Assembly (NCBI GenBank): GCA_021846945.1
Contig: JAJZVZ010000009.1
Coordinates: 1 to 60,291 of the forward strand
Origin: Acidobacteriota bacterium
GTDB lineage: Bacteria; Acidobacteriota; Terriglobia; Terriglobales; Acidobacteriaceae
Direction of reading: 5' to 3'
DNA length: 60,291 nucleotides
Below, piece after piece: positions 22,785-39,803 of this stretch (position 1 is the first letter of the stretch; each line of letters begins with the position of its first letter). A model generated the notes under the pieces. It worked only from the letters and a program-made list of their open reading frames with translations, did no database searches and was not told where the DNA came from. A program made the translations under genes and the position numbers.

Positions 22785-24292
22785 AGCCGCGCGCTCTCTA
22801 TGCCTGCATCGCCGTGCGCGAGTTTCCCGCGCAGGCCATGCTGCGCCTGCGCCCGGAGTCAGGTGCGGAACCATGTGTGGTCCTCGATGGCACGCCGCCG
22901 CTTGAGACTGTCTGCTCGTTGAACACGCGCGCACATCGGCTCGGCGTGACCGCAGGCATGACGCGCGTTGAAGCGGAGATTTTTCCGGCAACGCTGCTGG
23001 CGCGCTCGCGCAGCGAAGAACAGAACGCGCGTTCCGCGCTGCTTGCCTGCGCGGCGCAGTTCACGCCGCGCGTTGAGGAGTGCGGACGCGGCTCGACGTA
23101 TCTCTGCGTGCTCGACATTGCCGGGACTGCGCAACTCTTCGGCCCACCGGCAAAACTTGCCGCGAGTCTTCTCGAACGACTGCGCTCCGTGGGCCTCGCG
23201 GCCGCTATCGCTGTCGCCGCCAGCTTCCACACCGCGCGCTGTCTTGCCCTTGCGCGCAACTCCGGCTTCTGCGTTATTGCCGCCGGGCAGGAGAGCGCCG
23301 CGCTCGCTGCGTTGCCGCTCTCTGTGCTCGATCTTACCGGGCAACAGGCTGACACCTTCGCCGCCTGGGGCATTCGCACGCTCGGTGAGCTTGCCGGCCT
23401 GCCCGAAGCTTCGCTTGTTGCGCGCATGGGGCAGGAGGCAAAGCGCCTGCGTCAGCTCGCACTCGGCGCATCGCCTCATCTGTTTGTTCCGCTCGAAGAG
23501 GATCTTGCCCTCGAAGAGAGAATTGAGCTCGATACACCAGTCGAGCTGCTCGACTCGCTGTTATTTGTTCTACGCGTGCTTCTCGAACAGTTGATTGCGC
23601 GCGCTACGAGCCACCTGGCCACTCTGGCCGCAGTCACGATCGTGCTCCGGCTGGATGGTGGCGCGGAACACAGACGCGCAGTTCGCCCAGCGCTCGCCGG
23701 AAACGATCTGCAGCTCTGGATGAAACTTGTGCAACTCGATCTTGCCGCGCATCCACCGCAGGCTGCGATCCTCGGCGTCACGCTGACGGCTGAAACCGGC
23801 AGCCGCGGCAAAGTCCAACTCGGCCTGTTTTCACCCCAATCGCCGGAGCCGGACAAACTTGATGTCACGCTGGCGCGGCTACGCTCGATCGTCGGCGACG
23901 ACTGTGTTGGTATGCCCGTGCTCAAGGATACCCACCGCACCGGCAGCTTTGAGATTGCAGCCTTTCGCGCTACTTCCGCAGGCAGAGAAACTTCGCGCAG
24001 CAGCGAGCCGCGGCCGACGCGCGGCGCTCTGCGCATGTTGCGCCCGGCTGAACCGCTGAGCATCACCCTGCGCGGCAGGACGCCCGAGGCCTTCGTCTTT
24101 CGCGCAACGCGCTATCATGTGGAGCGAGCCTACGGACCATGGATTGCGAGCGGCGAATGGTGGAGTCCGACGCTCTGGGCTGTGCAACAGTGGGACGTGA
24201 TCGCGCGCAACGCCGCCGGAGAATTGCTCTACTGCTGCCTCGCCTTCGCGCCTATCGAGAAGGCCTGGCAGATGGCCGGCCTCTATGATTGA
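22781..24292 (+). CDS. imuB: ImuB (catalytically inactive Y-family homologue)
   Basis: The 503-residue protein aligns with Y-family polymerases (LNTRAHRLGVTAGMTRVEAE; VLDIAGTAQLFG; the thumb LGELAGLPEASLVARMG), but the N-terminal motif reads YACIAVREFP, without the catalytic Asp. That is the ImuB pattern: an adaptor rather than a polymerase. A beta-clamp-binding motif QLGLF is present near residue 345. The C-terminal part (RYHVERAYGPWIASGEWW) matches ImuB tails. The start ATG lies in the ATGA overlap with imuA; a longer frame running back into imuA is not used. Confidence 0.93.
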   Translation: MKPRALYACIAVREFPAQAMLRLRPESGAEPCVVLDGTPPLETVCSLNTRAHRLGVTAGMTRVEAEIFPATLLARSRSEEQNARSALLACAAQFTPRVEECGRGSTYLCVLDIAGTAQLFGPPAKLAASLLERLRSVGLAAAIAVAASFHTARCLALARNSGFCVIAAGQESAALAALPLSVLDLTGQQADTFAAWGIRTLGELAGLPEASLVARMGQEAKRLRQLALGASPHLFVPLEEDLALEERIELDTPVELLDSLLFVLRVLLEQLIARATSHLATLAAVTIVLRLDGGAEHRRAVRPALAGNDLQLWMKLVQLDLAAHPPQAAILGVTLTAETGSRGKVQLGLFSPQSPEPDKLDVTLARLRSIVGDDCVGMPVLKDTHRTGSFEIAAFRATSAGRETSRSSEPRPTRGALRMLRPAEPLSITLRGRTPEAFVFRATRYHVERAYGPWIASGEWWSPTLWAVQQWDVIARNAAGELLYCCLAFAPIEKAWQMAGLYD

Positions 24293-27200
24293 CGATTACA
24301 TCGAGCTTCACGCCGCGAGCGCCTTCAGCTTTCTTGAGGGAGCTTCGCAGCCTGAAGACCTCATCGAACGCGCCGCCGAGTTGCAGATGCCGGCCGTTGC
24401 GTTGCTCGATCGCAACGGCGTCTACGGAGCAACGCGCTTTCACACCGCGGCTGTGCGCGCAGGCGTGGCCGCGCACGTCGGCGCGGAGATTGCAGTCACC
24501 GGCTTAGGTCCACGTCTGCTGGCCTCCGAGTGGCTTCCGATGCGGCGCATGCCTGAGCCCGCGCGCTTGCCGCTCTTGTGCACCTCGCGCATCGGCTATC
24601 AGAACCTCTGCCAACTCATCACCTCGTTCAAGCTGCGCGAGCCGAACAAGGGAGAAGGCGCGGCCACACTGGAGGAACTTGCTCAATATGCCGAAGGCCT
24701 TGTCTGCCTTACCGGTGGCGACGAAGGCCCGCTTGCCTCAGCACTTGTTCACGGTGGAGAAGCTGCCGGCCGCAAGCTCGTTGACCGGCTTATCGCGATC
24801 TACGGGTGCGAGAACGTCTGCATCGAACTGCAGCGCCATCATGAACGCGAAGAAGAGTGGCGCAACCACGCCGCGCTGCGCATCGCCCGGTCACTGAATC
24901 TTCCGGTGCTTGCAACCAACGGTGTGCGCTATGCCAGGGCTTACGACCGCGAGATCCTCGACGTCTTCACGTGCATTCGCCATCATGCGCAGCTCGATCG
25001 CGCAGGGCGTCTGCTGTCGCTGAACAGCCAGCGTTTTCTGCGCCCGGCGCGCGAGATGATGCGCCTCTTCGCCGACATACCTGACGCCATCGCCAACACG
25101 CGCGAACTCTCCACGCGCCTCACGTTCCGCCTCAACGACCTTGGCTACGAGTTCCCGCATTATGCCGTGCCCCCGGGCGAAACCATGGACAGCTACCTCG
25201 CCCAGCTTGTGGCAAAAGGTGTGGTGAATCGTTACGGACCGAAGAGCGATGCGGACCTGATGCGCCGCGCACGGGCCCAGGTCGAGCATGAGCTCAAGTT
25301 GATCGCGAAGCTGGGCTTTGCCGGTTACTTCCTCATCGTCTGGGACATCGTGCAGTTCGCCAAGCGCAATGCCATCCTCATTCAGGGCCGTGGCAGCGCA
25401 GCCAACTCCGCCGTCTGCTATGCGCTTGAGATCACTGCTGTCGATCCCGTTGGCATGGAATTGCTCTTTGAGCGCTTCTTGAGCGAGAACCGCTGCGAAT
25501 GGCCTGACATCGACCTCGATCTGCCTTCCGATCAAATGCGCGAGCAGGCGATTCAATACATTTATCAGCGCTATGGTGAACTCGGCGCGGCAATGACGGC
25601 CAACGTCATTACTTATCGCAGCCGCTCGGCAGCGCGCGAAGCAGGCAAGGCGATGGGGTTCGATGAAGAGACGCTCGGCCGTCTGTCCGGCCTCGTCGGG
25701 CGCTGGGAGTGGCGCGGTGCCGCCGACACCATGGCCAATTCATTCCGCCAGGCGGGGTTTGACATCCAACATCCGCGTATCGCGAAATACCTGGAACTCT
25801 CCATGCGCCTGCAGGGACTGCCGCGCCATCTTGGCCAGCACTCCGGCGGCATGGTCATTTGCAAAGGTCTGCTTAACCGCGTTGTACCGCTCGAGCGTGC
25901 ATCGATGCCCGGCCGCACCGTCATTCAGTGGGACAAGGAAGACTGCGCAGACATGGGAATCATCAAGGTCGATCTGCTTGGGCTGGGCATGATGGCTGTG
26001 CTCAAGGACTCCATCGAGCTTATCCCGCGCCACTATGGCGAGCGCATCGACCTTGCCCACCTGCCCGAGGATGCGGAGGTCTATCGCACACTGCAACGCG
26101 CCGACACGATCGGCATGTTCCAGGTGGAGAGCCGCGCACAGATGGCCGCGCTGCCGCAGAATCATCCTGAGCACTTCTACGATGTCGTCGTACAGGTCGC
26201 CATCATCCGGCCCGGCCCAATCGTCGGCAAAATGATGCATCCTTACATGCGGCGCCGCCAGGGATTGGAGCCGGTGACGTATCCTCATCCCTTGCTCGAG
26301 TCCGTGCTCCGGCGTACGCTCGGCGTGCCGCTCTTTCAGGAGCAGCTCCTGCGCATGGCGATGACCGTCGCCAACTTCTCCGGCGCGGAGGCTGAGGAGT
26401 TGCGCCGCACGGTTGGCATGCGCCGTTCCTGGGAACGCATGAAGAATCTAGAAGGCCGCCTGCGCACAGGCATGACGGCAAACGGCATCGACGAGGAGAC
26501 GCAGCAGCGCATTGTCGACAACATCAGCTCGTTTGCGCTGTATGGGTTTCCCGAGTCGCACGCCGCGAGTTTTGCGCTCATCGCCTATGCCTCGGCCTAT
26601 CTCAAGGTGAAATATCTCGCTGCCTTCACCTGCGCTCTGCTGAACAATCAGCCGATGGGCTTCTATGCGCCGGCGGTGTTGGTTACAGATGCGCGCCGGC
26701 ACGGATTGCGCGTGAAGCCCATCGACGTGCAGATCTCCGAATGGCCTTGCATCCTCGAACACGAGCCGGATGGATCACTGTCGCTACGGCTGGGCATGGG
26801 CTACGCACGTGGCCTGCGCCGCCAGGTTGCGGAAGCGCTTGTCACCGCGCGCGCGCAGGAAGGCGCCTTTACTTCTGCGGAAGACCTTGCTCTGCGCGTA
26901 CCGTTGCTGAATCGCAAGGAACTCGCGCTGCTGGCGCGCATTGGCGCACTCAACAGCGTTAGCGGCATCGAGCACCGCCGCGATGCGCTCTGGCAGGTGG
27001 AGCGCGCCGGGAAACTCGAAGGCCCGTTATTGCGCCAACAAAGCGAGTGGCTGTGCGATCAAACCGAGATACAGCCGCTCCAATCCATGACAGATACTGA
27101 ACGCCTCGTCGCCGATTACAGCGGAACCGGCCTCACCGTAGGCCGCCATCCCATGCAGTTCCGCCGCGAGGCTTTGCGCGCGCACGGCATCCTTGCCGCG

Positions 27201-27503
27201 GCCGAGCTGCAACAGAAGCCCAGCGGAGCATGGGTGCGCTCTGCGGGCTGCGTCATCGCGCGCCAGCGGCCTGGCACGGCGAAGGGCTTTCTCTTTATCT
27301 CGATGGAAGACGAGACAGGCATCACGAACGTGATCGTGTCACCGGGCCTTTTCGAACAGGAGCGCCTCGTAGTCACACGCGCACGCTTTTTGCTTGTTGA
27401 AGGGCCTCTTCAGAATCAGCATGGCGTCATTCATATTCGCGCCAGGCGGCTACAGCCTCTCTCCGATGAAGCTATCGATGTCCGCTCGCATGACTTTCAC
27501 TAA
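24285..27503 (+). CDS. dnaE2: Error-prone DNA polymerase DnaE2 (ImuC)
   Basis: A 1072-residue C-family polymerase alpha subunit. It has an N-terminal PHP domain (ELHAASAFSFLEGAS), the catalytic PDIDLD motif near residues 407-412, GRGSAANSAVCYAL, LGQHSGGMV, a palm/fingers region (QWDKEDCADMGIIKVDLLGL), the helix-hairpin-helix and OB region (GCVIARQRPGTAKGFLFISMEDETG), and it ends shortly after, as DnaE2 proteins do (replicative DnaE is longer). It should perform the mutagenic extension step with ImuA and ImuB. The start overlaps imuB by 8 bp, so the three genes form one operon. Confidence 0.96.
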   Translation: MIDDYIELHAASAFSFLEGASQPEDLIERAAELQMPAVALLDRNGVYGATRFHTAAVRAGVAAHVGAEIAVTGLGPRLLASEWLPMRRMPEPARLPLLCTSRIGYQNLCQLITSFKLREPNKGEGAATLEELAQYAEGLVCLTGGDEGPLASALVHGGEAAGRKLVDRLIAIYGCENVCIELQRHHEREEEWRNHAALRIARSLNLPVLATNGVRYARAYDREILDVFTCIRHHAQLDRAGRLLSLNSQRFLRPAREMMRLFADIPDAIANTRELSTRLTFRLNDLGYEFPHYAVPPGETMDSYLAQLVAKGVVNRYGPKSDADLMRRARAQVEHELKLIAKLGFAGYFLIVWDIVQFAKRNAILIQGRGSAANSAVCYALEITAVDPVGMELLFERFLSENRCEWPDIDLDLPSDQMREQAIQYIYQRYGELGAAMTANVITYRSRSAAREAGKAMGFDEETLGRLSGLVGRWEWRGAADTMANSFRQAGFDIQHPRIAKYLELSMRLQGLPRHLGQHSGGMVICKGLLNRVVPLERASMPGRTVIQWDKEDCADMGIIKVDLLGLGMMAVLKDSIELIPRHYGERIDLAHLPEDAEVYRTLQRADTIGMFQVESRAQMAALPQNHPEHFYDVVVQVAIIRPGPIVGKMMHPYMRRRQGLEPVTYPHPLLESVLRRTLGVPLFQEQLLRMAMTVANFSGAEAEELRRTVGMRRSWERMKNLEGRLRTGMTANGIDEETQQRIVDNISSFALYGFPESHAASFALIAYASAYLKVKYLAAFTCALLNNQPMGFYAPAVLVTDARRHGLRVKPIDVQISEWPCILEHEPDGSLSLRLGMGYARGLRRQVAEALVTARAQEGAFTSAEDLALRVPLLNRKELALLARIGALNSVSGIEHRRDALWQVERAGKLEGPLLRQQSEWLCDQTEIQPLQSMTDTERLVADYSGTGLTVGRHPMQFRREALRAHGILAAAELQQKPSGAWVRSAGCVIARQRPGTAKGFLFISMEDETGITNVIVSPGLFEQERLVVTRARFLLVEGPLQNQHGVIHIRARRLQPLSDEAIDVRSHDFH

Positions 27504-27919: not shown

Positions 27920-28894
27920 ATGAAAATAGGCCGCGAGAGTGGAATAGCGTGTTTGCTCGTCCTTTTGTGTTGCCTGGGCTGCCGCACCAACACCTCGCGC
28001 TCGACGATCGCCGTGATTCCCCGCGATAGTGCCGAAGAGATTTGGGTATCGGAGCATGGCGGGGCAGTGGATGCTGCTTTCCGGCATCACTTGAAAATTT
28101 ATTGGAACGGCCCCACCCGCGACGATGAGGTAGAGCAACAGATCGCTCTGTGCGAGAAAGTCATTGCCGGGCGGTATTATGGACTGATCCTCAGCCCCAA
28201 CAACTCCTTCGCTCTTAATACGACAATTGAGCGCGCGGTTGAGAGCGGAATTCCTGTTGTCATTGTAGGCGCGCCGATCCCTATCTCTGCCCGCCGCGGC
28301 CTGACGTTTGTGTTGAACGATGCGGAAGAAATGGGGACACTGGCAGCAGAGCGCGCCCGCACAATACTGGGCGGGAAGGGAAGAATCATCATTCTTGGCG
28401 CAGACGCTTTGTCCCCCGGCAGCGTCGAACGATCGAACGCCTTTGAGAAGGCTTTGCAGCGCGAGGCGCCTGGAATCACCATTGAAGAAAAGCTTGCTGG
28501 ATCGTTGAGCTTCGGCGAAGCTGAACTTGCGTCGGAGCAAGATATCCACGCCTTTTCCGGAAGAACGGTGATCTTTGCGCTCGGCCCCAATGAAACAGAG
28601 GGAGCCGCCGCCGCTGTGCGCAACACCGGAACATCAAACAGAATCAGCATCATCGGTTGTGACCAGACTCTAGATCTGCTCTTTCTTCTGCGTCACAGGA
28701 AGATTGACTCATTGCTTGTGGAGAATACCCGGGACATGGGTAATCTTGCAGTCAAGGAGATCATCGCGGAGAAACAAGGGAAGCTGGTTTCCCCACGGAC
28801 CCTGGTCGATCCCGTATTAGTTACGCGCGAAAACATTGACCAGGAGGCGATTCAGCGAATCCTCTCATTGCGGTGGAGGCCTCGTAATGAATAG
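27920..28894 (+). CDS. Periplasmic sugar-binding-like lipoprotein (Peripla_BP_4 type)
   Basis: The 324-residue product starts with a lipoprotein-type signal (IACLLVLLCCLGC). The mature part is a type I periplasmic-binding fold as in ribose and autoinducer-2 binding proteins: IAVIPRDSAEEIW, GLILSPNNSFALNTTIERAVESGIPVVIVG, GKGRIIILGADALSPGSVERSNAF and ISIIGCDQTLDLLFLLRHRKIDSLL. No ABC permease or ATPase follows. Instead the 3' end overlaps the histidine kinase gene by 8 bp, so it is more likely a ligand sensor for that kinase than a transport component. The ATG at 27920 fits the signal peptide; a longer frame upstream has none. Confidence 0.85.
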   Translation: MKIGRESGIACLLVLLCCLGCRTNTSRSTIAVIPRDSAEEIWVSEHGGAVDAAFRHHLKIYWNGPTRDDEVEQQIALCEKVIAGRYYGLILSPNNSFALNTTIERAVESGIPVVIVGAPIPISARRGLTFVLNDAEEMGTLAAERARTILGGKGRIIILGADALSPGSVERSNAFEKALQREAPGITIEEKLAGSLSFGEAELASEQDIHAFSGRTVIFALGPNETEGAAAAVRNTGTSNRISIIGCDQTLDLLFLLRHRKIDSLLVENTRDMGNLAVKEIIAEKQGKLVSPRTLVDPVLVTRENIDQEAIQRILSLRWRPRNE

Positions 28895-31103
28895 TCGCGT
28901 GTATGGATGGCGGAAATGGGTGATCCTCACCGCTGCCGCACTAATTTTTCTTGGAGCGTTGCTGTTATTCACCTTCATGCGCGGCAGGCGCACTGTGCTG
29001 CCTTACCGCGATTCATTTTCGTCAAACAGCGCAACTCAGTGGCAGGCCTTCGGAGGAGCTTGGCAGCTTAGTAACGGCACCATGTTCAACCGCTCTGACG
29101 AGCGTGGCGCAAAACTCATTGCCGGATCATCGGACTGGTCAGATTACAGGATGCAAGCGGACCTGCAGATGATCGGCAACGGTGGAGATATAGGCATCAT
29201 TGTCCGTGCGGGCCGGGCGGAACGCGGCATTGATTCCTACAACGGCTATTACATCGGCCTCAGAAGCCTCGACTCGTCACTCGTCATCGGCCGCGCCGAC
29301 TACGGCTGGCTGGAAGGTCATCCTGTTCCGATGCCCGGAGGGGTACAACCCTCCGTTTGGTATCGGCTGGTGGTCGTCGCCGTTGGCTGCCGCATCGCGG
29401 CTACTGCGACCAACATTGAGACCGGCCAAAAGGCATGGGCCGCATTCGAAGAAAACCCGTGCGTCAGGAAGGGCAAGATTGGCTTGCGGTCCATGGCAAC
29501 CGGTGGCGCCTGGCGGAACATTTCTGTTGCGCGCGCAACTTTGCAGGATTGGGAATCCATTCGTGCCCATGCGGCCTTCGTGCAGCGCCCAATCTACCCA
29601 ATCCGCGAGGCGGATTACAACAAGATGCGCGATGCCGATCTTGCCGAGAGCCATGGCCCGGAGCGAAACAACCATATCGGGATGATTCTTCTCTCCGGCA
29701 ATCATCTAAGATCGGCGAAATTACACGAGCCGGAACTTGCGCCGATCGAAAACTTAAAGGAAGCTATATGGCCAGGGCAGCAATTGAGAATTCGTGGTGT
29801 TGTAACGCTTATTGACCCGCTCTTCGTACAAGATTCTACCGGCGGCATTGCTGTAGAGGTCCGGAAGTCCGTGCTTCTGAATCTGGGCGACGAAGTAGAG
29901 ATTACAGGTACACAGGTGAATTCAGGTTACGCCCCGAGATTTGAAGCGTCTGCCATCCGCCTGCTTTGGGACCGAACTCTCGTGGTTCCCCTTTCTATTT
30001 CCAGCACGCAGGCAGCCAGCGGAGCGTTCAATTCATCGTTGGTGGAAGTTCGCGGCTATCTGCGTTCAAAAGCGATAGCTTCCAAAGGAACAATCATTCT
30101 AAATATCAGTGACGCATCTCAATCTTTCACTGTTATCAGCAAGAGCCCGCTTTCTCTGCGCGACTACAAGGGCTGGGAATCAGAAAGTTTGTTGCGAGTT
30201 GATGGAGTTTGCGTGCTCGGTGAGCCGTTTTCCACTGGCGGCTCCGCCTTTGCCATCCTTACCCGCTCTACGGATGATATTCAGGTAATATCCGGACCGC
30301 CGTGGTGGAGCGGAGAACGGCTCTTGCGCCTGATCCTCCCCCTCATCCTGCTGGTAATTTTAGGAATCGTTCTCTATATCCGGATCGAGCGCTGGAAGAT
30401 GCGCGGAATCTTAGAGGAGCGCGAACGGCTGGCTCACGAGATGCACGACACCCTGGCGCAGAGTTTTGCGGGAGTTGGTTTCCATCTTCAGGGAATACGA
30501 AATACCCTTCGCAGTGGCAACTCGTCCAGCGCAAACAACCTGATGGAAAAGCTCGATCTGGCCTGCGATCTCGTAACGCAGACCCACCGCGAGGCAAGCG
30601 CAAATATCGCCGCCCTCCATCCGGATGCGGACGAGGGCCGTGATCTGCTCGTTGCGCTTGAACACTATGCCATGCGAATGTTCAACGCGGTCGATCTTGC
30701 GGTCGTGGCGGCGCGGGAGGGTGCGCCGCGCGATCTCTCGCTCCCCGTCCGCGACGCGCTCTTTCAAATTGGCCGTGAAGCAATCACGAATGTTATCCGG
30801 CACAGCCGCGCCAGCCAGATTGCGCTGAGTTTGCGCTACGAATTCAAGTGGCTTGTACTTACGATTCGGGATAATGGGATCGGTTTCATCCCCAGCCAGC
30901 AGACCGGATTCGGTATGAGGACGATGCATAGCCGGTGTGAGGCAATCAGTGCTGAAATGAGTGTTACCAGCACCCCCGGGTCTGGCACTACGATCTCAGT
31001 GCGTTCTCCATACGGTTTGCGGCTTACCTTTCTGGACTGGATCAGGCACGTCTGGAAACGGCAGCAAGCCATGCTCGGCAGTGCTTCCGCATCCAGCGAT
31101 TAG
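28887..31103 (+). CDS. Sensor histidine kinase with ConA-like and OB-like periplasmic domains
   Basis: A 738-residue membrane kinase. TM1 is at about 7-30. The outer part has a concanavalin/DUF1080-like domain (about 40-210; WQAFGGAWQLSNGTMFNRS, YNGYYIGLRSLDSSLVIGR) and an OB-like domain (about 290-365; LRIRGVVTLIDPLFVQDSTG). TM2 lies at about 479-500. The cytoplasmic part is NarL-partner type: HisKA_3 with the phospho-acceptor His near 520 (HEMHDTLAQ) and HATPase_c (GREAITNVIRHS, DNGIGF, GFGMRTMHSR). The ATG follows GGAGG and overlaps the lipoprotein gene. Likely partner is the convergent response regulator. Confidence 0.9.
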   Translation: MNSRVYGWRKWVILTAAALIFLGALLLFTFMRGRRTVLPYRDSFSSNSATQWQAFGGAWQLSNGTMFNRSDERGAKLIAGSSDWSDYRMQADLQMIGNGGDIGIIVRAGRAERGIDSYNGYYIGLRSLDSSLVIGRADYGWLEGHPVPMPGGVQPSVWYRLVVVAVGCRIAATATNIETGQKAWAAFEENPCVRKGKIGLRSMATGGAWRNISVARATLQDWESIRAHAAFVQRPIYPIREADYNKMRDADLAESHGPERNNHIGMILLSGNHLRSAKLHEPELAPIENLKEAIWPGQQLRIRGVVTLIDPLFVQDSTGGIAVEVRKSVLLNLGDEVEITGTQVNSGYAPRFEASAIRLLWDRTLVVPLSISSTQAASGAFNSSLVEVRGYLRSKAIASKGTIILNISDASQSFTVISKSPLSLRDYKGWESESLLRVDGVCVLGEPFSTGGSAFAILTRSTDDIQVISGPPWWSGERLLRLILPLILLVILGIVLYIRIERWKMRGILEERERLAHEMHDTLAQSFAGVGFHLQGIRNTLRSGNSSSANNLMEKLDLACDLVTQTHREASANIAALHPDADEGRDLLVALEHYAMRMFNAVDLAVVAAREGAPRDLSLPVRDALFQIGREAITNVIRHSRASQIALSLRYEFKWLVLTIRDNGIGFIPSQQTGFGMRTMHSRCEAISAEMSVTSTPGSGTTISVRSPYGLRLTFLDWIRHVWKRQQAMLGSASASSD

Positions 31104-31143
31104 GCTGATGGAAGATAGATGGCAGCCACCATCGCGCCTGCCT

Positions 31144-31776
31144 CTATCCTTCCTCCATACGCACAAGCCCCTGCTGCAGAGCTACGGCAATCGCTTCGCT
31201 CCGGTCTCGTACGCCGAGCTTTTCCAGCACGCTCACAACATGGTTGCGAACTGTATTCTCACTAATGGAGAGTTCCTCTGCGATTTCATGATTCTTCATA
31301 CCGCGCGCCACCAATTGAAGAATCTCCAATTCGCGCGTACTCAACGGCGCGCGGCTGAGCCTCTGCGCAAGCTGTTGCGCGATATGTGCCGGAATCCAGC
31401 GCTCGCCCGCATAAACTTTGCGGATTGCCTCGGTTACCTGCTCCAGGGAGGAACTTTTCAAAATGTACGCCATCGCGCCTGCCTTCACGGCGCCAAAAAC
31501 ATCCTCATCGGAGTGGTACGTCGTCAGGACCACGGAGCGAACATTAGGGCAAAGGTGGCGCAGCTCAAGCAACATCGCCTCGCCGTTCATCTCCCTCATC
31601 CGCAAGTCAGCAAGAACAACGTCGGGCAAAACCAATGGTATTGCCTCCAATGCGTCCTTGCCACTTGCGGCCATTCCCACAACCTTCATATCCGGCTCGC
31701 TCTCAAGCATGGTCTTAAGGCCAAGCCGAACAACGGCATGGTCGTCAACGATGAAAATACGAATCGCTTTTCTCAC
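31144..31776 (-). CDS. NarL/FixJ-family response regulator
   Basis: The 210-residue protein has a receiver domain with the acidic pair Asp11-Asp12, phospho-acceptor Asp57 (VVLADLRM) and the conserved Lys in YILKSSS. A LuxR-type HTH follows (about 146-196; LSTRELEILQLVARGMKNHEIAEELSI, with ENTVRNHVVSVLEKLGV). The start is GTG at 31776 with AGGAG seven bases upstream. It lies tail to tail with the histidine kinase (40 bp apart), the natural partner since HisKA_3 kinases pair with NarL-type regulators. Targets probably include the receptor gene on the other side of the 650-bp spacer. Confidence 0.92.
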   Translation of the reverse strand: MRKAIRIFIVDDHAVVRLGLKTMLESEPDMKVVGMAASGKDALEAIPLVLPDVVLADLRMREMNGEAMLLELRHLCPNVRSVVLTTYHSDEDVFGAVKAGAMAYILKSSSLEQVTEAIRKVYAGERWIPAHIAQQLAQRLSRAPLSTRELEILQLVARGMKNHEIAEELSISENTVRNHVVSVLEKLGVRDRSEAIAVALQQGLVRMEEG

Positions 31777-32424
31777 TCTCGCTCCTGCAAGCGCAGAGCG
31801 AATTTTATCCCATTTGGCCTCTCATCGGGCCGTATTCATGCAGTAGTCCTCCAGCACTATCTGAAAATGCGCGTACTAGACCATTGACCTCCCTATCGCA
31901 TCTTCCATAGCATCAATCCGCGCGATCTTTCACTATGAAAGCGTATTCAGGATAATGCTTGGCTTTCCACGTGATCACGTCTTTGTTGTTGCCGGTGTGA
32001 TGGTCGTCCAGTGCCGGCGATGCCTTACGCTCACGCCTTCATACCCGCAACCCACTTGCTCCTGCGAGAAATCTTATGGCGCGTCAAAAGAAACCGAACT
32101 CTCGCTGGCAGGTATCAGTTGCCAGGATGCTGGCAGGCCGGCTCCGAAGCTGAGCGAGCACATATTTTTCGCTCTTCGCAGCACTCAGGCTCCTCGGAGG
32201 CGCTACATCCGCGGAGAGAACTCCTTGACAGCCAGACCAATGCCGGGATAGCCTTTCGACGCTGCTGGTAATGCATTACATTCCTGCGTCTGCATTCATC
32301 CGCGAAATCCCCGGCGCGGGCAACGTAAGAACTCGGATGTCAGTTCACTGCGACATTCCGCCGGTCAGGACACACAGAGCAACAACTGCACTTAACAATC
32401 GAAAATCTTATGGGAGGTCGAACT
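31777..32424. other. 650-bp divergent regulatory region
   Basis: The spacer separates the response-regulator gene (minus) from the receptor gene (plus). No protein-like frame is seen. It contains an inverted word set CTGGCA/TGCCAG/CTGGCA (about 32107-32141), TTGACA near 32225 without a good -10 at 17 bp, and AT-rich DNA before the receptor start. It is the obvious place for regulator binding sites, but none could be defined. Confidence 0.4.
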
Positions 32425-35400
32425 ATGCTGAAATCACAAAGAATTAGATTGCTTCTGGCAATCCTCGTTCCCCTTTGTCTGCTAACATACGGCCGCGCGC
32501 AACAACAAACGGGCGAACTGACGGGGCAGATCACGGATAGCAGCGGAGCTGTGATTCCAGGCGCAACGGTGACTATCACCAACCCCGCCCGGGGAATTGC
32601 GGTTACTGTGACGACCAACGCGCAGGGTACCTATATTGCGCCCTTGCTCCCACCGGCCGACGGCTATCAGATCTCGGCCTCTAAACCCGGATTTAAGGCC
32701 GTAATGCGCGAGGGCATCACCTTGCAGGTGGCGCAGGTAGCGCAGGTCAATCTCTCCCTGGTTGTCGGTTCCTCAACCGAATCCGTTGTAGTGAGCGGAG
32801 CTCCACCGCTGCTTGACACGCAGACCTCTTCCGCCGGACAGGTTATCGAGAAACGCACGATCGCAAGCCTCCCGCTCAACGGGCGCAGCACATTTCGACT
32901 TATTCAACTTACACCCGGGGTTACTTTCAACTCGTCAGCCTATGGCCAGTTCGGCGACGTGCCCGTTAATACGACCTGGGATACAAACTTTTCCATCAGT
33001 GGCGGCCAGGCTCAGAGCAATGAGATTCTCATAGACGGCGTGCCAAGCTCGGCTGGCTTTTTCGATCAGATTACGACGATTCCATCGGTAGATGACACCG
33101 AAGAGTTTAAAGTTGAAAGCAATAACCTTTCGGCAGAGTACGGCAGGTTCACCGGCGGCGTCATCAACGTCACCACGAAATCGGGCACGAATGCGGTACA
33201 TGGGGACGCGTTTGAATTTCTTCGCAACTCGGCTCTTGACGCCAACGATTATATCGATAACAGCAAAGGGGTGAAGGTCCCGCCTTTCAGAATGAATCAA
33301 TATGGCGGCACCCTTGGCGGCCCAGTTTTCCTTCCCAAGCTCTATGACGGCCGTAACAAGACCTTCTTCTTCGTTGACTACCAGGGGACGCGGAGAGCCC
33401 AGGGCACTACCTTCCTGGGAACTGTGCCGACCGCCTTACAGAGAACGGGTGACTTCAGCCAAACCTACAATGCGAAGGATCAATTAGTAGCGATCTATAA
33501 TCCCTTTTCAACGGAGCCCGATCCAAACCATCCGGGCCAATATATCAGGCAGGCATTTCCGAATAACAAGATTCCCGCTGCGATGCTCGATCCGGTCGCG
33601 AAAAATATTATGAGTTACTACCCGTTACCAAACACGCAGGGGTCACCATTCACAAATACAAATAACTTTTTGAGCAATGCCATGATGACGGTAACTCAGG
33701 ATGCGGGGAGCGCCCGCATCGACCAGAACGTCAATGAGCACTATCATTTCTTTGGGCGGTTCGGATGGCTGCTGACGAACCTGACTCAGCCCAATACCTT
33801 TGGAAATCTTGCGACTGGTGGCGCTGGCGCGGTAGGCACCACCCAATTTCATAACTGGTCATTTGCCTTCGACAATACCGTGACCATCAGCCCCACGTTG
33901 TTATTGACCGTAAACTACGGCTATGCGCGATGGTTTCAATCCCGTAAAACTCTGAGCTATGGATTTGATAATGCTAAGCTCGGGTTTCCATCGCAGTTTG
34001 TAAGCTCAATCAGGATTCCGATGTTCCCGACGATCAACATTACGACCTATAGCGGGATGAACGGCCAGAGCTATCTGCTGAATGGTAATGATTCGCATAG
34101 TCTGCTCACTTCATTGACTAAGATTCATGGACGGCATACGTTCATGGTCGGTACAGACGTACGCCTGCACCTCATTAACTTCTTTAATGTCGGTTCAAGC
34201 TCAGGCACGTTCAATTTCGCGCTTGCTCAGACACAGGGACCAAACCCGAATGTCGCAAGCGAGACTGCGGGCAATGCGTTAGCCAGCTTTCTTGTGGGAG
34301 CCGGCAGCGGGGGATCAATGCCCATCGGCTCCGGAAATGAGCTGAAAGACTGGTACGCAGCTATATATGCTCTGGATAACTTTCAGGTAACAAGCAAGCT
34401 AACCATCAACCTCGGCATTCGCTACGAGGAAGAGAGTCCTTACACTGACCGTCATAACCAGTTGGATTATTTCAACCCAACAGTCGCAAGCCCGGCCAAG
34501 AATCCTTCGTTCCCCAACTTGACAGGTGGCCTTGTTTACGCAGGTGTAAATGGGGGCCCTGCCAGTGTCTATAACTGGAACACGAATCAATTTACCCCGC
34601 GCGTGGGCTTTGCCTACACAATCTTCCCTGAAACCGTCATTCGCGGCGGCGCGGGCATAGTCTATGGACCTCTTGAGGTAAGTAATAACGCCGTTGGCTT
34701 CGTTCCGAACGCAGGCTTTAGTTCCACCACGAACTGGGAGACTTCGCTAAATGGTGGCCTCAATCCCTTCAATGTGTTGAGTAATCCGTATCCACAGGGG
34801 TTAGTTGCGCCTACCGGGAGTTCTCTTGGCGCCGGAACGTTATTAGGCCAGTCGTTGAGCGTGTGGGATGCTAATCCAAAGACCCCGGAAGCCTATCAGT
34901 GGAATTTCTCGATTCAGCGGCAGCTTCCCTCCGATATCCTGGCCGAAGTGGCCTATGTCGCCAGCCGCGGCCTGTATCTTGCCAATTCTTTCAACTTGAA
35001 CTTCCTGAACCCGGAATACCTCAGCATGGGGACCGCATTACAAGCCAAAGTTCCGAATCCGTTTAAGCCCTTTGTGACGATCGGAGCCCTTTCACAACCC
35101 ACGGTTACAAGACAGCAACTCCTCCGGCCCTTCCCTCAATTTACCGGCGTCGGGACGGAGAACACCACTTGGGGAAGCTCAGACTACCAGTCGATGCAGG
35201 TAAAGATTAATAAGCGGACGACGCATGGAGTCAGCATGCTGGCAGCGTATACGCTTAGTAAGTGGATCTCAAATATCGATCCGCAGGCTGCTCCTATCGG
35301 AACGTCGAATAACGCGTCCGTTCAGAACTGGTATGATCTTGCTGCCGAAAAATCGTTGTCGACAGACGACATTCCACAGTCTCTCATCCTTAACGTGGTC

Positions 35401-35925
35401 GCTGATCTGCCTTTTGGTCAGGGTCGCCGCTTTCTGGGCGGCATCCACGGCCCCCTCGAGAAACTGGTCGGAGGCTGGAATGCATCCGGGATTTTGACGG
35501 AGCAGGCAGGGTTCCCTCTCGCTATGCACGCTCCGATCGTCGACGGTGGCAACCGGCCGAACGTTGTTTCTGGTGTGAGCCCTAAACTCTCCTCATCGCG
35601 CCCGGTCGCTGCGAAAATCGGCGAATGGTTCAATACAGCGGCATTTTCGCTTCCGGCGCCGTTTACCTTTGGTAATGTATCGAGAACCGTTGATTCCGTG
35701 CGCGCGCCTGGAATTAGTAATTTGGATTTTGCCTTGGAGAAGAACACCCAGTTGATGGAGCGTCTGGCGATGCAATTCCGAGCCGAGGCGTTTAACCTTA
35801 CCAACACACCGCACTTCGGCTTGCCCGATACAAACATGGCCGATGCCCAGTTCGGGCAGATCAACACGGTGTTGCCTTCGCCGCCGCCCCGCGAGATACA
35901 GTTCGCGGTCAAGCTTATCTTCTAG
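32425..35925 (+). CDS. TonB-dependent receptor of the Acidobacteria CarboxypepD_reg type
   Basis: A 1166-residue outer-membrane beta-barrel protein. After a signal peptide (LLLAILVPLCLLTYGRAQQ) comes a CarboxypepD_reg/Cna_B-like domain (ELTGQITDSSGAVIPGATV), then a plug (RTIASLPLNGRSTFRLIQLTPGV; NEILIDGVP; FTGGVINVTTKSGTN) and a barrel of long strands ending with the outer-membrane signal-like INTVLPSPPPREIQFAVKLIF. Large receptors like this are amplified in Acidobacteria and thought to import oligosaccharides. No SusD partner is adjacent. The ATG at 32425 has GGGAGG seven bases upstream; another ATG lies at 32410. Confidence 0.92.
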   Translation: MLKSQRIRLLLAILVPLCLLTYGRAQQQTGELTGQITDSSGAVIPGATVTITNPARGIAVTVTTNAQGTYIAPLLPPADGYQISASKPGFKAVMREGITLQVAQVAQVNLSLVVGSSTESVVVSGAPPLLDTQTSSAGQVIEKRTIASLPLNGRSTFRLIQLTPGVTFNSSAYGQFGDVPVNTTWDTNFSISGGQAQSNEILIDGVPSSAGFFDQITTIPSVDDTEEFKVESNNLSAEYGRFTGGVINVTTKSGTNAVHGDAFEFLRNSALDANDYIDNSKGVKVPPFRMNQYGGTLGGPVFLPKLYDGRNKTFFFVDYQGTRRAQGTTFLGTVPTALQRTGDFSQTYNAKDQLVAIYNPFSTEPDPNHPGQYIRQAFPNNKIPAAMLDPVAKNIMSYYPLPNTQGSPFTNTNNFLSNAMMTVTQDAGSARIDQNVNEHYHFFGRFGWLLTNLTQPNTFGNLATGGAGAVGTTQFHNWSFAFDNTVTISPTLLLTVNYGYARWFQSRKTLSYGFDNAKLGFPSQFVSSIRIPMFPTINITTYSGMNGQSYLLNGNDSHSLLTSLTKIHGRHTFMVGTDVRLHLINFFNVGSSSGTFNFALAQTQGPNPNVASETAGNALASFLVGAGSGGSMPIGSGNELKDWYAAIYALDNFQVTSKLTINLGIRYEEESPYTDRHNQLDYFNPTVASPAKNPSFPNLTGGLVYAGVNGGPASVYNWNTNQFTPRVGFAYTIFPETVIRGGAGIVYGPLEVSNNAVGFVPNAGFSSTTNWETSLNGGLNPFNVLSNPYPQGLVAPTGSSLGAGTLLGQSLSVWDANPKTPEAYQWNFSIQRQLPSDILAEVAYVASRGLYLANSFNLNFLNPEYLSMGTALQAKVPNPFKPFVTIGALSQPTVTRQQLLRPFPQFTGVGTENTTWGSSDYQSMQVKINKRTTHGVSMLAAYTLSKWISNIDPQAAPIGTSNNASVQNWYDLAAEKSLSTDDIPQSLILNVVADLPFGQGRRFLGGIHGPLEKLVGGWNASGILTEQAGFPLAMHAPIVDGGNRPNVVSGVSPKLSSSRPVAAKIGEWFNTAAFSLPAPFTFGNVSRTVDSVRAPGISNLDFALEKNTQLMERLAMQFRAEAFNLTNTPHFGLPDTNMADAQFGQINTVLPSPPPREIQFAVKLIF

Positions 35926-36045
35926 GCGCCGCATAATGATGATTTGCGATGTGGGAACAGAAGAAGTATGGAATCTGATTGATCTCTGTTTCCTATTTAT
36001 CGCGGTTTAGCAAGCAAGCAAAACTATAGGACAGGAGTGACTGAC

Positions 36046-37605
36046 ATGAATCGCCGTGATCTGATTAAATCTTCGCTGCTCAGTGCGGGTGCTTTGGCAG
36101 CAGGTCCGATGGAGGCCCAACAAAGCACTTCCGGGGCCTATCCGGCCAATCATATGTGGCCGTATCCTCCGACCCAGCTCAACGGCGGCCGGATGCCCAA
36201 CATTCTCTGGATATGCCCGGACATGCAACGTTTCGATACGATCGAGGGGTTGAACAATGAACACATTCATACGCCCAACCTGCGCAAATTGATGTCCGAG
36301 TCAGTCACTCTGACGCATACTTATGTGCAGAACCCCGTATGCTCTCCGTCGCGAGCGAGCTTTCTAACCGGAAGGTACCCGCACACAACTGGCCTGAGAG
36401 CGCTGGGGCAGCGCATCCGTCCGGACGAGCACGTAGTGACGCGCATTCTTTCAGACTCAGGATATGCGTGTGGTCTATCCGGCAAACTTCATCTCTCACC
36501 AACCTTTGGAGGGCGTCTTGAAGACCGCATCGATGATGGCTACGCTGTCTTTGACTGGAGTCATGACATCAGCAACTTATGGCCGGGACATAATATGTGG
36601 CGCGTGTGGCTGAGGGAGAACGGTGTTAAGTGGCCCGAGCCTCCACCGGGGCTGGACGGACGAGCCTGGGGAGTGCCGATCGATCCCAAATATACGCAGA
36701 CGGCGTGGTGTTCCGACCGGGCGATTCAGTTCATACACGGACAAAGGCAGTTCAATCCATGGTTGATGTCAGTGAATATCTATCAACCGCACGCTCCATA
36801 TTGGCCCACCGAGGAATATCTTAGTCACTATAACCCTGCGGATATTCCCAGCCCGAACTATCACGAGGGAGAGTTAAAGAATAAGCCGATTTATCAACAG
36901 ATCGATCATCAGGGAGCGAGTGGAGGACATGGCGTGTCATTTACAAAGACCTCCGACTATGATCACCGCAAGATAAAGGCAGCGTATTACGCCATGATCG
37001 AGCAGGTAGATACGGAAGTTGGCCGGATGTTGCACGCGCTGGAGGAGAGTGGTCAGGCGGAGAACACAATTGTCATCTATATGAGCGACCACGGAGAGAT
37101 GCTCGGCGATCATGGAATTTTCCTTAAGGGCCCCTATTTTTACGAGGGCGCGATCCGGGTACCGATGATTATCCGCTGGCCCGGTAAGTATAAGGCCGGC
37201 CTGCGCAGCGACGCCCTGGTAGAGATGATTGACCTGGCGCCGACGCTGCTCGAGGCCGCGGGCATTGCCATACCCGAGCGCATGCAAGGGCGTTCATTGA
37301 CGCCGCTGTTAACGGGCCAGACCACCACACATCGCGATTCGATTTATTGCGAGTATTTCGATTCGCTGGCGCTCTATAACCCTCCGCCTATGGCTGTGTG
37401 CGTCAGGAATGAGCGTTATAAGATGGTGTACTACCAGAAGCTCAATGTTGGCGAACTGTACGACCTGGAAAAGGATCCCAATGAGACTTATAACCTTTGG
37501 GATTCATCAGGCGCCCAGTCTGCTCGCAATGCAATGATGCAGACCATGATGTCCCGAATGGTGGATACCGTAGATCCAATTCCTGAAAGGAAATGCATGT
37601 GGTAG
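36046..37605 (+). CDS. Sulfatase (formylglycine type), Tat-exported
   Basis: The 519-residue enzyme hydrolyses sulfate esters. A Tat signal is present (MNRRDLIKSSLLSAGALAAG). Catalytic features: NILWICPDMQR for the first metal-ligand strand, the formylglycine motif CSPSR within NPVCSPSRASFLTGR, the GKLH pair, NIYQPHAPY and the metal motif MSDHGEMLGDHG. A maturation enzyme (FGE) must convert the Cys; none lies in this window. The ATG at 36046 is preferred over GTG at 36037 because of GGAG eight bases upstream. Position after the receptor gene suggests action on a sulfated glycan. Confidence 0.92.
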   Translation: MNRRDLIKSSLLSAGALAAGPMEAQQSTSGAYPANHMWPYPPTQLNGGRMPNILWICPDMQRFDTIEGLNNEHIHTPNLRKLMSESVTLTHTYVQNPVCSPSRASFLTGRYPHTTGLRALGQRIRPDEHVVTRILSDSGYACGLSGKLHLSPTFGGRLEDRIDDGYAVFDWSHDISNLWPGHNMWRVWLRENGVKWPEPPPGLDGRAWGVPIDPKYTQTAWCSDRAIQFIHGQRQFNPWLMSVNIYQPHAPYWPTEEYLSHYNPADIPSPNYHEGELKNKPIYQQIDHQGASGGHGVSFTKTSDYDHRKIKAAYYAMIEQVDTEVGRMLHALEESGQAENTIVIYMSDHGEMLGDHGIFLKGPYFYEGAIRVPMIIRWPGKYKAGLRSDALVEMIDLAPTLLEAAGIAIPERMQGRSLTPLLTGQTTTHRDSIYCEYFDSLALYNPPPMAVCVRNERYKMVYYQKLNVGELYDLEKDPNETYNLWDSSGAQSARNAMMQTMMSRMVDTVDPIPERKCMW

Positions 37606-37652
37606 GTCATGCCTTTCGGTCTTAGTTCAGATAACAACCAAATAGTTCGATT

Positions 37653-39803
37653 ATGAGGCCGCTATTGAAGATGAGGAATCTTTATTCTGCAGGAATTGGT
37701 GTCTTTGCTTGTACTCTGTGTTTTTTGGTCAATGGGATAAGCTCCTTCGGACAGGTGCGGGACGGCGGAACGCCGTTCCGGCCGCCCGCTGTGCCTTTGA
37801 TTACCCATGATCCCTATTTCAGTATCTGGTCCATGGCGGACCATCTCACTGATGTACCTACAAAGCACTGGACAGGAATTCCGCAGGAGCTGTGCGGGAT
37901 TGTCCGTGTGGACGGCAAGGCCTATCGCTTTCTTGGATTGTGCGAACAGAGGAGGCCATCGCTTCCCGCTCTGCAAGAGACGCAGAGCGAAGTTACTCCG
38001 ACGCGAACGATAGCAGTCATGACCAGCCCGGAGATCGAACTTCGAGTCGAGTTCATGACTCCGGCATTTCCTGAAGACATGGCGCTGATGGCGCGTCCAG
38101 TCACATACCTTCGCTGGGAGGTGAAGGCTCGCGATGGCCGCCCACACGATGTGACGCTCTATCTGGATGCCGCCGGGACACTGGCCGTGAACGACCCTGG
38201 GGAAGAAGTTACCTGGTCGAGGAGCAGAATCAACGGTCTTGATCTATTGCAAGTCGGCAGCGAGGCACAGCCGGTCTTGCAGCGCTTTGGCGATAATGTG
38301 CGCATTAATTGGGGCTGGTTCTACATCGCCGTACCCCAAAATGAAACAAGTGAGACAGCGGCGGGTAATGTAAGTTACCGAAGGGCTTTCCTGGCAACCG
38401 GGCGTATTCCGGATGTCGATGATATTGAAGGCGCACGCACACCGCAGAGCCACTATCCGCCGGCGCCGGCGCTGAATGTCTGCCTGCCACTCGGGAAAGT
38501 TGGGCAATCGCCAGTGGAACGTCATGTCCTGCTGGCGTACAACGATCTCTATTCCGTCGAATACATGCAGCGCAAGCTGTTGCCTTACTGGCGGACGCAA
38601 TTTTCAACGTTTGCCGGCATGCTTGAAGCAGCGGAGAAGCAATATCCTGTACTTGAGAAGCGCTCAAAGATATTCGATAACAGGCTTCAGAGCGATCTTG
38701 TCCAGGCCGGCGGCGTTGAATACGCTCACCTCGCAACACTAGCTTACCGGCAGGCGATTGCCGCGCAGAAACTGGTGGAGGATACCGACGGCGTCCCCTT
38801 TTTCATGCCCAAGGAGAACTTCAGTAACGGTTCCATCTCGACTGTCGATGTGATCTATCCATCCGCGCCGATGTTTCTGCTGCTCAACCCCAAGCTCGTG
38901 GAAGCGCAACTCGAACCAGTGCTCCGGTATGCGGAGATGCCGCGCTGGAAGTTCCCCTTCGCGCCGCATGATCTGGGCGTGTATCCGCTGGCGAATGGTC
39001 AGCAGTATGGAGGCGGCGAACAAACCGAAGAGAATCAGATGCCGGTGGAGGAGTCAGGAGATCTTTTACTGCTGGTTGCGGCCACGGAACATGCGGAAGG
39101 CAATGTTACCTTTGCGCGCCGCTACTGGCCGCTGCTGACCAAGTGGGCCGAGTACCTTAAGGTGAAGGGGCTTGACCCTGCAAACCAGCTCTGCACCGAC
39201 GATTTTGCCGGGCACCTGGCTCATAATGCGAATCTCTCGCTCAAAGCGATTGAGGCGCTGGGCGCATATGGACAGCTTGCTCAAGAACTGAACCATCCAC
39301 AGATCGCGCAGCAGTATCTGTCTCTTGCGCATTCGATGGCCTTGCAATGGGTAAAGATGGCCGCGGATGGCGATCACTATCGGCTGGCCTTTGATAAGCC
39401 GGGCACATGGAGCCAAAAATATAATCTGGTTTGGGACGGGATCCTGGGATTGAATCTCTTTTCTCCTGACGTAAGCGCCCGCGAGATTGCCTTTTACAAA
39501 AAGCATCTCAATCGGTATGGCCTTCCTCTGGACGACCGCGCCACTTATACCAAGCTTGACTGGGAGTTATGGACGGCAACTCTGACAAGGAATGCCGGCG
39601 ATTTTCAGATGTTTGTGCATCCTGTCTATGAGTTCCTGAACGACACGCCGGACCGCGTACCCATGACCGATTGGTATGACACGATTACTGCGCGGCAGGT
39701 TCATTTCCAGGCTCGGTCGGTTGTTGGCGGAGTCTATATAAAGATGCTGGCCAATCCCGAGCTCTGGAAGAAGTGGGCTTCGTTGCCGGCGGATACTCCA
39801 TAG
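37653..39803 (+). CDS. Exported DUF4965/glutaminase A-like protein
   Basis: The 716-residue product has a signal peptide (IGVFACTLCFLVNGISSFGQ) and the domain order of the fungal glutaminase GtaA family: DUF4964 (PLITHDPYFSIWSMADHLTD), DUF5127 (central beta-rich part) and DUF4965/DUF1793 helical domain ((alpha/alpha)6 type, PRWKFPFAPHDLGVYPLANGQ; EESGDLLLLVAATEHAEGN). The fold is shared with several glycoside hydrolases, so the bacterial members in glycan loci may act on sugars rather than glutamine. The gene follows the sulfatase by 47 bp on the same strand, suggesting co-transcription. No strong Shine-Dalgarno; an in-frame ATG at 37671 is an alternative start. Confidence 0.85.
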   Translation: MRPLLKMRNLYSAGIGVFACTLCFLVNGISSFGQVRDGGTPFRPPAVPLITHDPYFSIWSMADHLTDVPTKHWTGIPQELCGIVRVDGKAYRFLGLCEQRRPSLPALQETQSEVTPTRTIAVMTSPEIELRVEFMTPAFPEDMALMARPVTYLRWEVKARDGRPHDVTLYLDAAGTLAVNDPGEEVTWSRSRINGLDLLQVGSEAQPVLQRFGDNVRINWGWFYIAVPQNETSETAAGNVSYRRAFLATGRIPDVDDIEGARTPQSHYPPAPALNVCLPLGKVGQSPVERHVLLAYNDLYSVEYMQRKLLPYWRTQFSTFAGMLEAAEKQYPVLEKRSKIFDNRLQSDLVQAGGVEYAHLATLAYRQAIAAQKLVEDTDGVPFFMPKENFSNGSISTVDVIYPSAPMFLLLNPKLVEAQLEPVLRYAEMPRWKFPFAPHDLGVYPLANGQQYGGGEQTEENQMPVEESGDLLLLVAATEHAEGNVTFARRYWPLLTKWAEYLKVKGLDPANQLCTDDFAGHLAHNANLSLKAIEALGAYGQLAQELNHPQIAQQYLSLAHSMALQWVKMAADGDHYRLAFDKPGTWSQKYNLVWDGILGLNLFSPDVSAREIAFYKKHLNRYGLPLDDRATYTKLDWELWTATLTRNAGDFQMFVHPVYEFLNDTPDRVPMTDWYDTITARQVHFQARSVVGGVYIKMLANPELWKKWASLPADTP

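Follow-up and report, generated by a model that had tools for sequence, protein, structure and literature searches.

How might a bacterium that has no recognizable SusD protein sense a polysaccharide and switch on the outer-membrane receptor for it? This question is raised by a locus at positions 27920-39803 of a 60,291-nucleotide stretch of DNA from an Acidobacteriota bacterium (hereafter the window), which a first-pass annotation had read as a glycan sensing and uptake locus with a lipoprotein-kinase pair, built from parts other than SusC and SusD. Its six open reading frames (ORFs) proved intact and as then described (ORF list and Pfam): a sugar-binding lipoprotein gene overlapping a sensor kinase gene, followed by genes for a NarL-type regulator, a TonB-type receptor, a sulfatase with a Tat (twin-arginine translocation) signal and a DUF4965 protein of the GtaA family (Table 1). 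The reading itself is supported as well, in that the module is conserved and the genome has a single copy of a candidate operator, which lies in the locus; PF07980, the sole SusD family searched, gave 0 matches in this 5.3-Mb, 99% complete genome, in agreement with the absence of SusD. I consider it probable that the genes form a three-component glycan sensor that runs a polysaccharide-uptake locus by activating a SusD-free receptor operon. This proposal draws on gene content, linkage, predicted folds, a palindrome and the promoter spacing in the window's clade. In the periplasm the lipoprotein would capture a small sugar or an oligosaccharide and dock onto the kinase encoded by the overlapping gene. 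The outer part of the kinase, a CBM66-like and presumably glycan-binding domain followed by tandem OB folds, would join the lipoprotein signal with direct glycan contact. Ligand binding would then switch the kinase and lead to phosphorylation of the regulator, which would bind the palindrome TAGTNCNNNNGNACTA and activate a promoter 24 bp downstream, from which the receptor, the sulfatase and the GtaA-family enzyme would be transcribed.

Conservation was assessed in two sets of sequences: a sample of 200 genomes of the order (numbered G), and 80 named loci (numbered L), the best 80 of 113 related loci found in the GTDB collection, which together with the window make 81 loci. The two sets overlap in organisms (G046 = L074, G175 = L076) and are not independent. 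A query made of the outer part of the kinase found a whole or partial match in 95 of the 200 genomes. All named loci bear Acidobacteriota titles except those from two metagenome bins, L142 and L146, which I take to be mis-binned. A kinase with CBM66-like and OB parts is present in 73 of the 80 loci. The lipoprotein gene adjoins the kinase gene in 72 of these 73, the sole miss being L148, where the contig ends 3 bases from the CBM66-like gene; 67 have the regulator gene at most 3.5 kb away, and of the six without it two are cut by a contig end; the receptor gene lies within 9 kb in 68. The lipoprotein gene was also adjacent in 40 of 40 fetched neighbourhoods, a set overlapping the 80 loci. Loci in which the CBM66-like part forms a gene of its own (L147 and L149, and on the opposite strand L168-L171) keep the lipoprotein, the OB-kinase and the regulator. 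The regulator gene (67 loci and the window) has the same orientation as the kinase gene in 56 cases and the opposite one in 12, the window among them. The genes for lipoprotein, kinase, regulator and receptor thus make up a conserved module, and the outcomes that the first-pass annotation would have taken as refutation, genes not conserved together or a regulator of unrelated genes, did not occur for these four. The conserved placing of a sugar-binding-protein gene beside a kinase gene is that of a three-component system. Some large recurrent neighbours of the module have no Pfam match at 1e-5 (L099 787-3396, L136 3-2318 and L085 14954-17392, each found in 5-6 loci).

The palindrome is distinguished by its position. 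The single exact TAGTNCNNNNGNACTA site of the window's genome sits between the regulator and receptor genes. In the 80 loci and 22 kb of the window, 1,452,452 bases in all, there are 25 exact matches, and all 25 fall in module promoters; these were taken to extend for 700 bp before the domain of a lipoprotein, regulator or receptor, and account for 9.6% of the sequence. The same half-sites at spacers of 0-3 and 5-8 gave no match, and over 360 permuted half-sites (the original among them) the mean was 1.4 matches. Variants of the motif behaved like it (T.GTAC, 9 of 9 in promoters; TAGTC., 6 of 7), while none of the 19 matches of the permuted half-site T.ATCG was in a promoter. An exact site is found at most 900 bp upstream of the receptor in 23 of 69 loci (150 permuted motifs: mean 0.11, maximum 4), and a site with at most one mismatch in 43 (mean 1.78, maximum 13). 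These counts include the four loci whose orthologous promoters, read side by side, gave the motif, and the loci are related; 8-mer enrichment had given a mere hint of the operator.

The promoter geometry of the window's clade would fit activation. The window, L072, L073, L074 and L076 group together on the tree (support 87), and in all five the palindrome, which in L076 has one mismatch, stands exactly 24 bp before a TTGA-type -35 hexamer, with TAGNAT after an 18-bp spacer. A site 24 bp upstream of the -35 hexamer is in the usual position for an activator. In L073 (Edaphobacter modestus DSM 18101) the receptor and GtaA genes are divergent transcripts flanking the module, with an operator at each; the second operator stands, by eye, 24 bp before TTGCAG-17-TAGCAT. 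Having separate operators ties GtaA to the proposed regulon independently of operon structure. Another palindrome, the LacI-like GTAATGCATTAC at 32268, which accompanies a TTGACA box (32232) in the stretch 32225-32279 upstream of the receptor gene, was dropped as a candidate, not being apparent by eye upstream of the receptors in L072, L074 and L076. An imperfect palindrome-like site lies near the end of the regulator gene in L099 (12799), L101 (12816), L087 (12819), L098 (12760) and L120 (11716), and apparently precedes downstream genes, TPR or GH127 in several loci.

What could such a kinase sense? Its outer part, modelled from 70 aligned sequences (pLDDT 91), comprises in order a membrane helix, a beta-sandwich, a linker, two OB-like folds and a second membrane helix leading to HisKA_3. 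The beta-sandwich of this predicted model has the CBM66 fold (best match 4azz: VIA-align Z 22.6, rmsd 2.0, 158 residues aligned) at 13-15% identity to CBM66; it thus shares the fold of the Bacillus subtilis domain but sits in a kinase, not in an enzyme. It also matches 3keto-disac_hyd (PF06439; 3.6e-6, 27.6 bits against a cut-off of 26.8), as do 70 of 70 kinase homologues at E <= 0.01, and given the kinase context it is assumed to be a sensor rather than a hydrolase. The second domain is called OB-like from profile matches and from Foldseek rows with low TM-scores: Pfam names PF01336 (OB) in 23 of the 70 homologues, though not in the window protein, the region has a weak profile match to YgiW (1nnx, E 0.0035), and OB proteins occur among the Foldseek matches listed for the outer part, the listed PDB matches being dominated by domain 1. 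Two cysteines, C168 and C192 (numbering of the first alignment row), are invariant in the 70 outer parts, which would fit a disulfide outside the cytoplasm. Proteins without a kinase part, some 700-1070 residues long and carrying two CBM66-like domains in tandem, occur in L211, L212, L214 and L159, that of L159 adjoining a CBM66-like kinase.

The lipoprotein model (75 sequences, pLDDT 95.3) has the type I sugar-binding protein fold. The top TMt among the Foldseek matches listed is 0.90 (3g1w_B), and AraP, GanP and XylFII chains are also near (5xsj_X, TMt 0.82). A more distant relative, the Bacteroides 'sensor protein' 2x7x, which I take to be the fructose hybrid two-component system BT1754, matches the lipoprotein profile at 1.3e-21. 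In the 200-genome sample, with at most 11 candidates scored per genome, 79 proteins matched the lipoprotein family at E <= 1e-30, and 70 of them are encoded no more than 3 kb from a CBM66-like and OB kinase. Among the matches listed, and counting OB matches only where they accompany a CBM66-like match, the lipoprotein was found within 1.5 kb at 70 of 70 CBM66-like loci with OB and at 0 of 14 without; the 14 include four non-kinases (G107:C19, G123:C9, G071:C3, G048:C22) and one split kinase (G116:C8). The lipoprotein is also absent beside seven OB-profile proteins that have no CBM66-like part (L161-L167). On a tree of the CBM66-like domain, from which 8 of 99 rows were left out (L139, a copy of L153; L142, L146, L109, L148, contig-cut; L144 and L150, with a partial domain; L213, a copy of L150), the ten kinases lacking OB fall into a single nested group (SH-aLRT 92, not starred). 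Judging by this tree, OB folds and lipoprotein were probably lost jointly, once, which is suggestive of a shared function without being a test of it; L150/L213, a split kinase lacking both and standing outside the tree, might be a second loss. The proteins of L161-L167 each show two OB-profile stretches; L167 has three such ORFs consecutively, and L166, where the protein accompanies a kinase, a regulator and a receptor, is the only one of the seven that matched the kinase profile.

Several observations weigh against a three-component sensor that acts through the palindrome. An adjacent regulator gene is missing at L075, L081, L083 and L084 in spite of more than 9 kb of downstream sequence. No palindrome with at most one mismatch precedes the receptor in 26 of 69 loci, and allowing two mismatches abolishes discrimination (55 of 69 loci; control mean 19.7, maximum 45). 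The bare TAGTNCNNNNGNACTA pattern is present in 90 of the 200 genomes, some of them without the module, so that the evidence is its position and not its presence. The 24-bp geometry is that of the best promoter call in only 9 of 64 aligned loci, five of which are the window's clade; L077, which comes next to this clade on the tree, lacks it. No promoter was called in 21 of the 64, and many loci outside the clade share, by eye, a CTCATGCG-like box at the promoter position instead. Sulfatase and GtaA were seen as a pair in six of the sampled genomes, and three of these (G065, G105 and G108) have the pair but not the sensor, hence the two enzymes are not tied to it. Finally, the joint loss of OB and lipoprotein is a single event with only one independent pair on the tree, which allows no statistical test of their dependence and is not claimed as proof. 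Moreover, all ten kinases of the tree that lack both keep the regulator and nine keep the receptor, and the palindrome is exact at two loci without OB (L152, L154) and has one mismatch at a third (L160). Sensing without the lipoprotein is therefore evidently possible.

By Pfam the locus combines a TonB-type receptor with co-located degradative enzymes. The first-pass annotation had gone further and suggested a sulfated glycan. This is unproven, and there is a substantial possibility that the target is not sulfated, the 'sulfatase' acting on another ester, a phosphonate or a different compound to which the sensor has been recruited. In favour of sulfate are the modified-cysteine motif of a type I sulfatase (CSPSR at C99) together with homologues of the formylglycine-generating enzyme (FGE) in the genome (PF03781, best 5.6e-84), and the fact that the solved chains matching the protein are named sulfatases. 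The NCBIfam matches are all below cut-off; the best are arylsulfatase and choline-sulfatase models, and the PehA phosphonate/sulfate hydrolase model is among them. Sister modules point elsewhere. At least one carbohydrate-type cluster gene is present in 58 of the 81 loci; the cargo, with each BLAST cluster named after a single representative and counted in module loci, is GH127 in 31, GH5-like in 10, GtaA in 9, alpha-L-arabinofuranosidase-C in 7, GH43 in 6, and the sulfatase of the window's cluster, GH35-like and MGH1-like proteins in 5 each; TPR proteins are present in 32 loci and FG-GAP/UnbV proteins in 14. Mapped on the tree without the window row and compared with 50 shuffles, this cargo changes 5 times for GtaA (mean 7.7, lowest 7), 16 for GH127 (23.5, lowest 17), 15 for TPR (23.6, lowest 19) and 7 for GH5 (9.5, lowest 8); AF51 (6) and UnbV (10) equal the lowest shuffle. 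All 5 loci of the window's tree group have GtaA, and 4 of the 5 have the series receptor-sulfatase-GtaA, which is kept in L072, L074 and L076. A close orthologue of the sulfatase is found in 9 of the 200 genomes, with GtaA next to it in 6 (a seventh, G170, has its contig cut at this point), the receptor directly upstream in 6 and the sensor module in 3, and the separability of the sulfatase-GtaA pair from the sensor again speaks for a non-sulfated target. One orthologue lies in L256 (1-15191) among six ORFs matching the sulfatase query around a receptor, a candidate sulfated-glycan locus; this context favours sulfated substrates for that orthologue, without proof for the window's.

Is the lipoprotein needed for sensing? 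It is conceivable, though unlikely, that the kinase senses the glycan directly and that the lipoprotein is a mere affinity booster or sugar buffer, like CuaD to CuaSR. The clade that retains regulator, mostly receptor and sometimes palindrome after loss of OB and lipoprotein is what one would expect in that case, and CuaSR without CuaD still senses cellobiose (PMC10384115). However, no uncut CBM66-like locus with OB is without the lipoprotein in either set of sequences, which speaks for a role of the lipoprotein wherever OB occurs. As to the output, the regulator might repress the receptor operon or control its own gene only, or the palindrome might serve another regulator. The palindrome starts only 68 bp from the regulator start (31776) and the 24-bp geometry is missing outside the window's clade; the activator-like position of the site in all five loci of that clade, on the receptor side, and the equally spaced second site before GtaA in L073 nevertheless make these possibilities quite improbable. 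In sequence as in fold, the lipoprotein is most closely related to CUT2 transport proteins. Of its nine lone homologues, the neighbours of five were scanned, and ATP-binding cassette (ABC) transporter genes were found at three (L202, L206, L208) and GH88 and OmpA at the remaining two, which suggests that the lipoprotein descends from a transport protein. That it still delivers substrate to an ABC importer, whose genes might lie elsewhere, and is placed beside the kinase for co-expression only is very improbable and is not favoured by the neighbourhoods of module and lone homologues, since it pairs with one kinase architecture and no ABC gene adjoins it in the 81 loci (phmmer with one ATPase and one permease query; the two ATPase matches are each kilobases from the module).

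The three-component sensor proposed here resembles several known systems. XylFII-LytS-YesN of Clostridium beijerinckii and CuaD-CuaS-CuaR of Ruminiclostridium cellulolyticum likewise place a sugar-binding protein of the Peripla_BP_4 fold, XylFII being among the fold matches of the window lipoprotein, beside a membrane kinase and a regulator of uptake genes. The XylFII-LytS-YesN subtype combines a LytS/YesM-type kinase with an AraC-type regulator (YesN); the window locus is not of this subtype, as its kinase is HisKA_3 and its regulator GerE. It differs from both systems in the CBM66-like and OB domains of the kinase and in its target, an outer-membrane TonB-type receptor and not an ABC importer. 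In both, the binding protein touches the kinase, and CuaD, a predicted lipoprotein, binds CuaS (PMC10384115). The BT1754-type hybrid of Bacteroides is a periplasmic fructose sensor governing a neighbouring polysaccharide utilisation locus (PMC3404733). Control of an adjacent locus by a periplasmic sugar sensor is common to BT1754 and the window, but the hybrid is one polypeptide, whereas sensor protein, kinase and regulator are three genes here. Loci of the SusC/SusD type similarly group an outer-membrane receptor gene with enzymes and a sugar-sensing kinase; the window's receptor is of the PF25183 type instead, in a genome without a PF07980 match. By the features compared, I read the window locus as lying outside the YesN, hybrid and SusCD classes while probably working like XylFII-LytS, CuaDSR and BT1754.

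The kinase ATG (28887) precedes the end of the lipoprotein stop codon (28894), an 8-bp overlap, and the regulator gene, whose product has Asp57 as putative phospho-acceptor, is convergent with the kinase gene and divergent from the receptor gene. The receptor (32425) and sulfatase (36046) starts are preceded, by eye, by ribosome-binding sites. With gaps of 120 bp (receptor to sulfatase) and 47 bp (sulfatase to GtaA), the three genes are spaced as in an operon and may be transcribed together. The receptor also has a Plug match below the Pfam cut-off, and PF25183 gives 76 matches in the genome, some proteins giving two. The sulfatase begins with a Tat-like signal (RRDLIK), and the Pfam content of the last protein is GtaA_6_Hairpin, DUF5127 and DUF4964. 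Just upstream of the lipoprotein gene, 22775-27503 carries genes of the IMS family (ImuB-like) and of DNA polymerase III alpha type (presumably DnaE2-like), which probably make up a cassette for SOS mutagenesis and have nothing to do with the glycan locus.

Table 1. Coordinates in the window of the genes, domains and proposed regulatory elements.
Feature	Position	Strand	Evidence
LIP, CUT2 / Peripla_BP_4 type I sugar-binding lipoprotein, proposed ligand-binding co-sensor	27920..28894	+	PF13407 7.4e-34
Lipobox cysteine codon, Cys21 of CLGC	27980..27982	+	C in 68/75 aligned homologues
HK, membrane sensor histidine kinase, HisKA_3 type	28887..31103	+	Pfam; start read from sequence
HK domain 1, CBM66-like beta-sandwich (Pfam 3keto-disac_hyd)	28998..29543	+	Predicted model vs CBM66 4azz
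HK domain 2, tandem OB-like folds, then second transmembrane helix	29745..30296	+	Profile matches; model strands 299-361 and 385-469
HK core, HisKA_3 + HATPase_c, His520 in HEMHDT	30417..31010	+	Pfam, sequence
RR, NarL/LuxR-type response regulator	31144..31776	-	PF00072 3.1e-22 (Response_reg), PF00196 1.9e-20 (GerE)
Proposed RR operator, palindrome TAGTCCTCCAGCACTA	31844..31859	.	Sole exact TAGTNCNNNNGNACTA match in 5.3-Mb genome
Proposed -35 hexamer TTGACC, 24 bp past operator	31884..31889	+	Equal distance in 5/5 window-clade loci
Proposed -10 hexamer TAGCAT, spacer 18	31908..31913	+	TAGNAT + spacer 18 in 5/5 window-clade loci
TonB-dependent-receptor-like outer membrane protein, OMP_b-brl_4 PF25183 + CarboxypepD_reg	32425..35925	+	2.1e-230
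Tat-signal type I sulfatase, CSPSR at C99	36046..37605	+	PF00884 2.6e-47, PF16347 (SGSH_C) 7.3e-36
GtaA/DUF4965-family secreted protein, last gene of proposed receptor operon	37653..39803	+	PF16335 6e-136, PF17168, PF16334

I found no account of the kinase architecture, of the operator or of a link to the Acidobacterial receptors in open papers, subscription papers and preprints lying outside the scope of the search. A broader proposal, which I put forward tentatively, is that the module represents a class of dual-input sensors, found largely in Acidobacteriaceae, in which the CBM66-like domain would read the glycan and the OB-docked lipoprotein the released sugar, and one operator, TAGTNCNNNNGNACTA, would switch SusD-free TonB-receptor operons whose cargo (GH127, GH43, arabinofuranosidase-like or sulfatase-GtaA) is exchanged between lineages. 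Acidobacteria are widespread in soils (PMC7074687). With its conserved sensor and recognisable operator, the module offers a way of assigning regulons, and hence substrates, to loci with PF25183 receptors, and of asking whether a carbohydrate-binding domain and a binding lipoprotein work jointly on one kinase.

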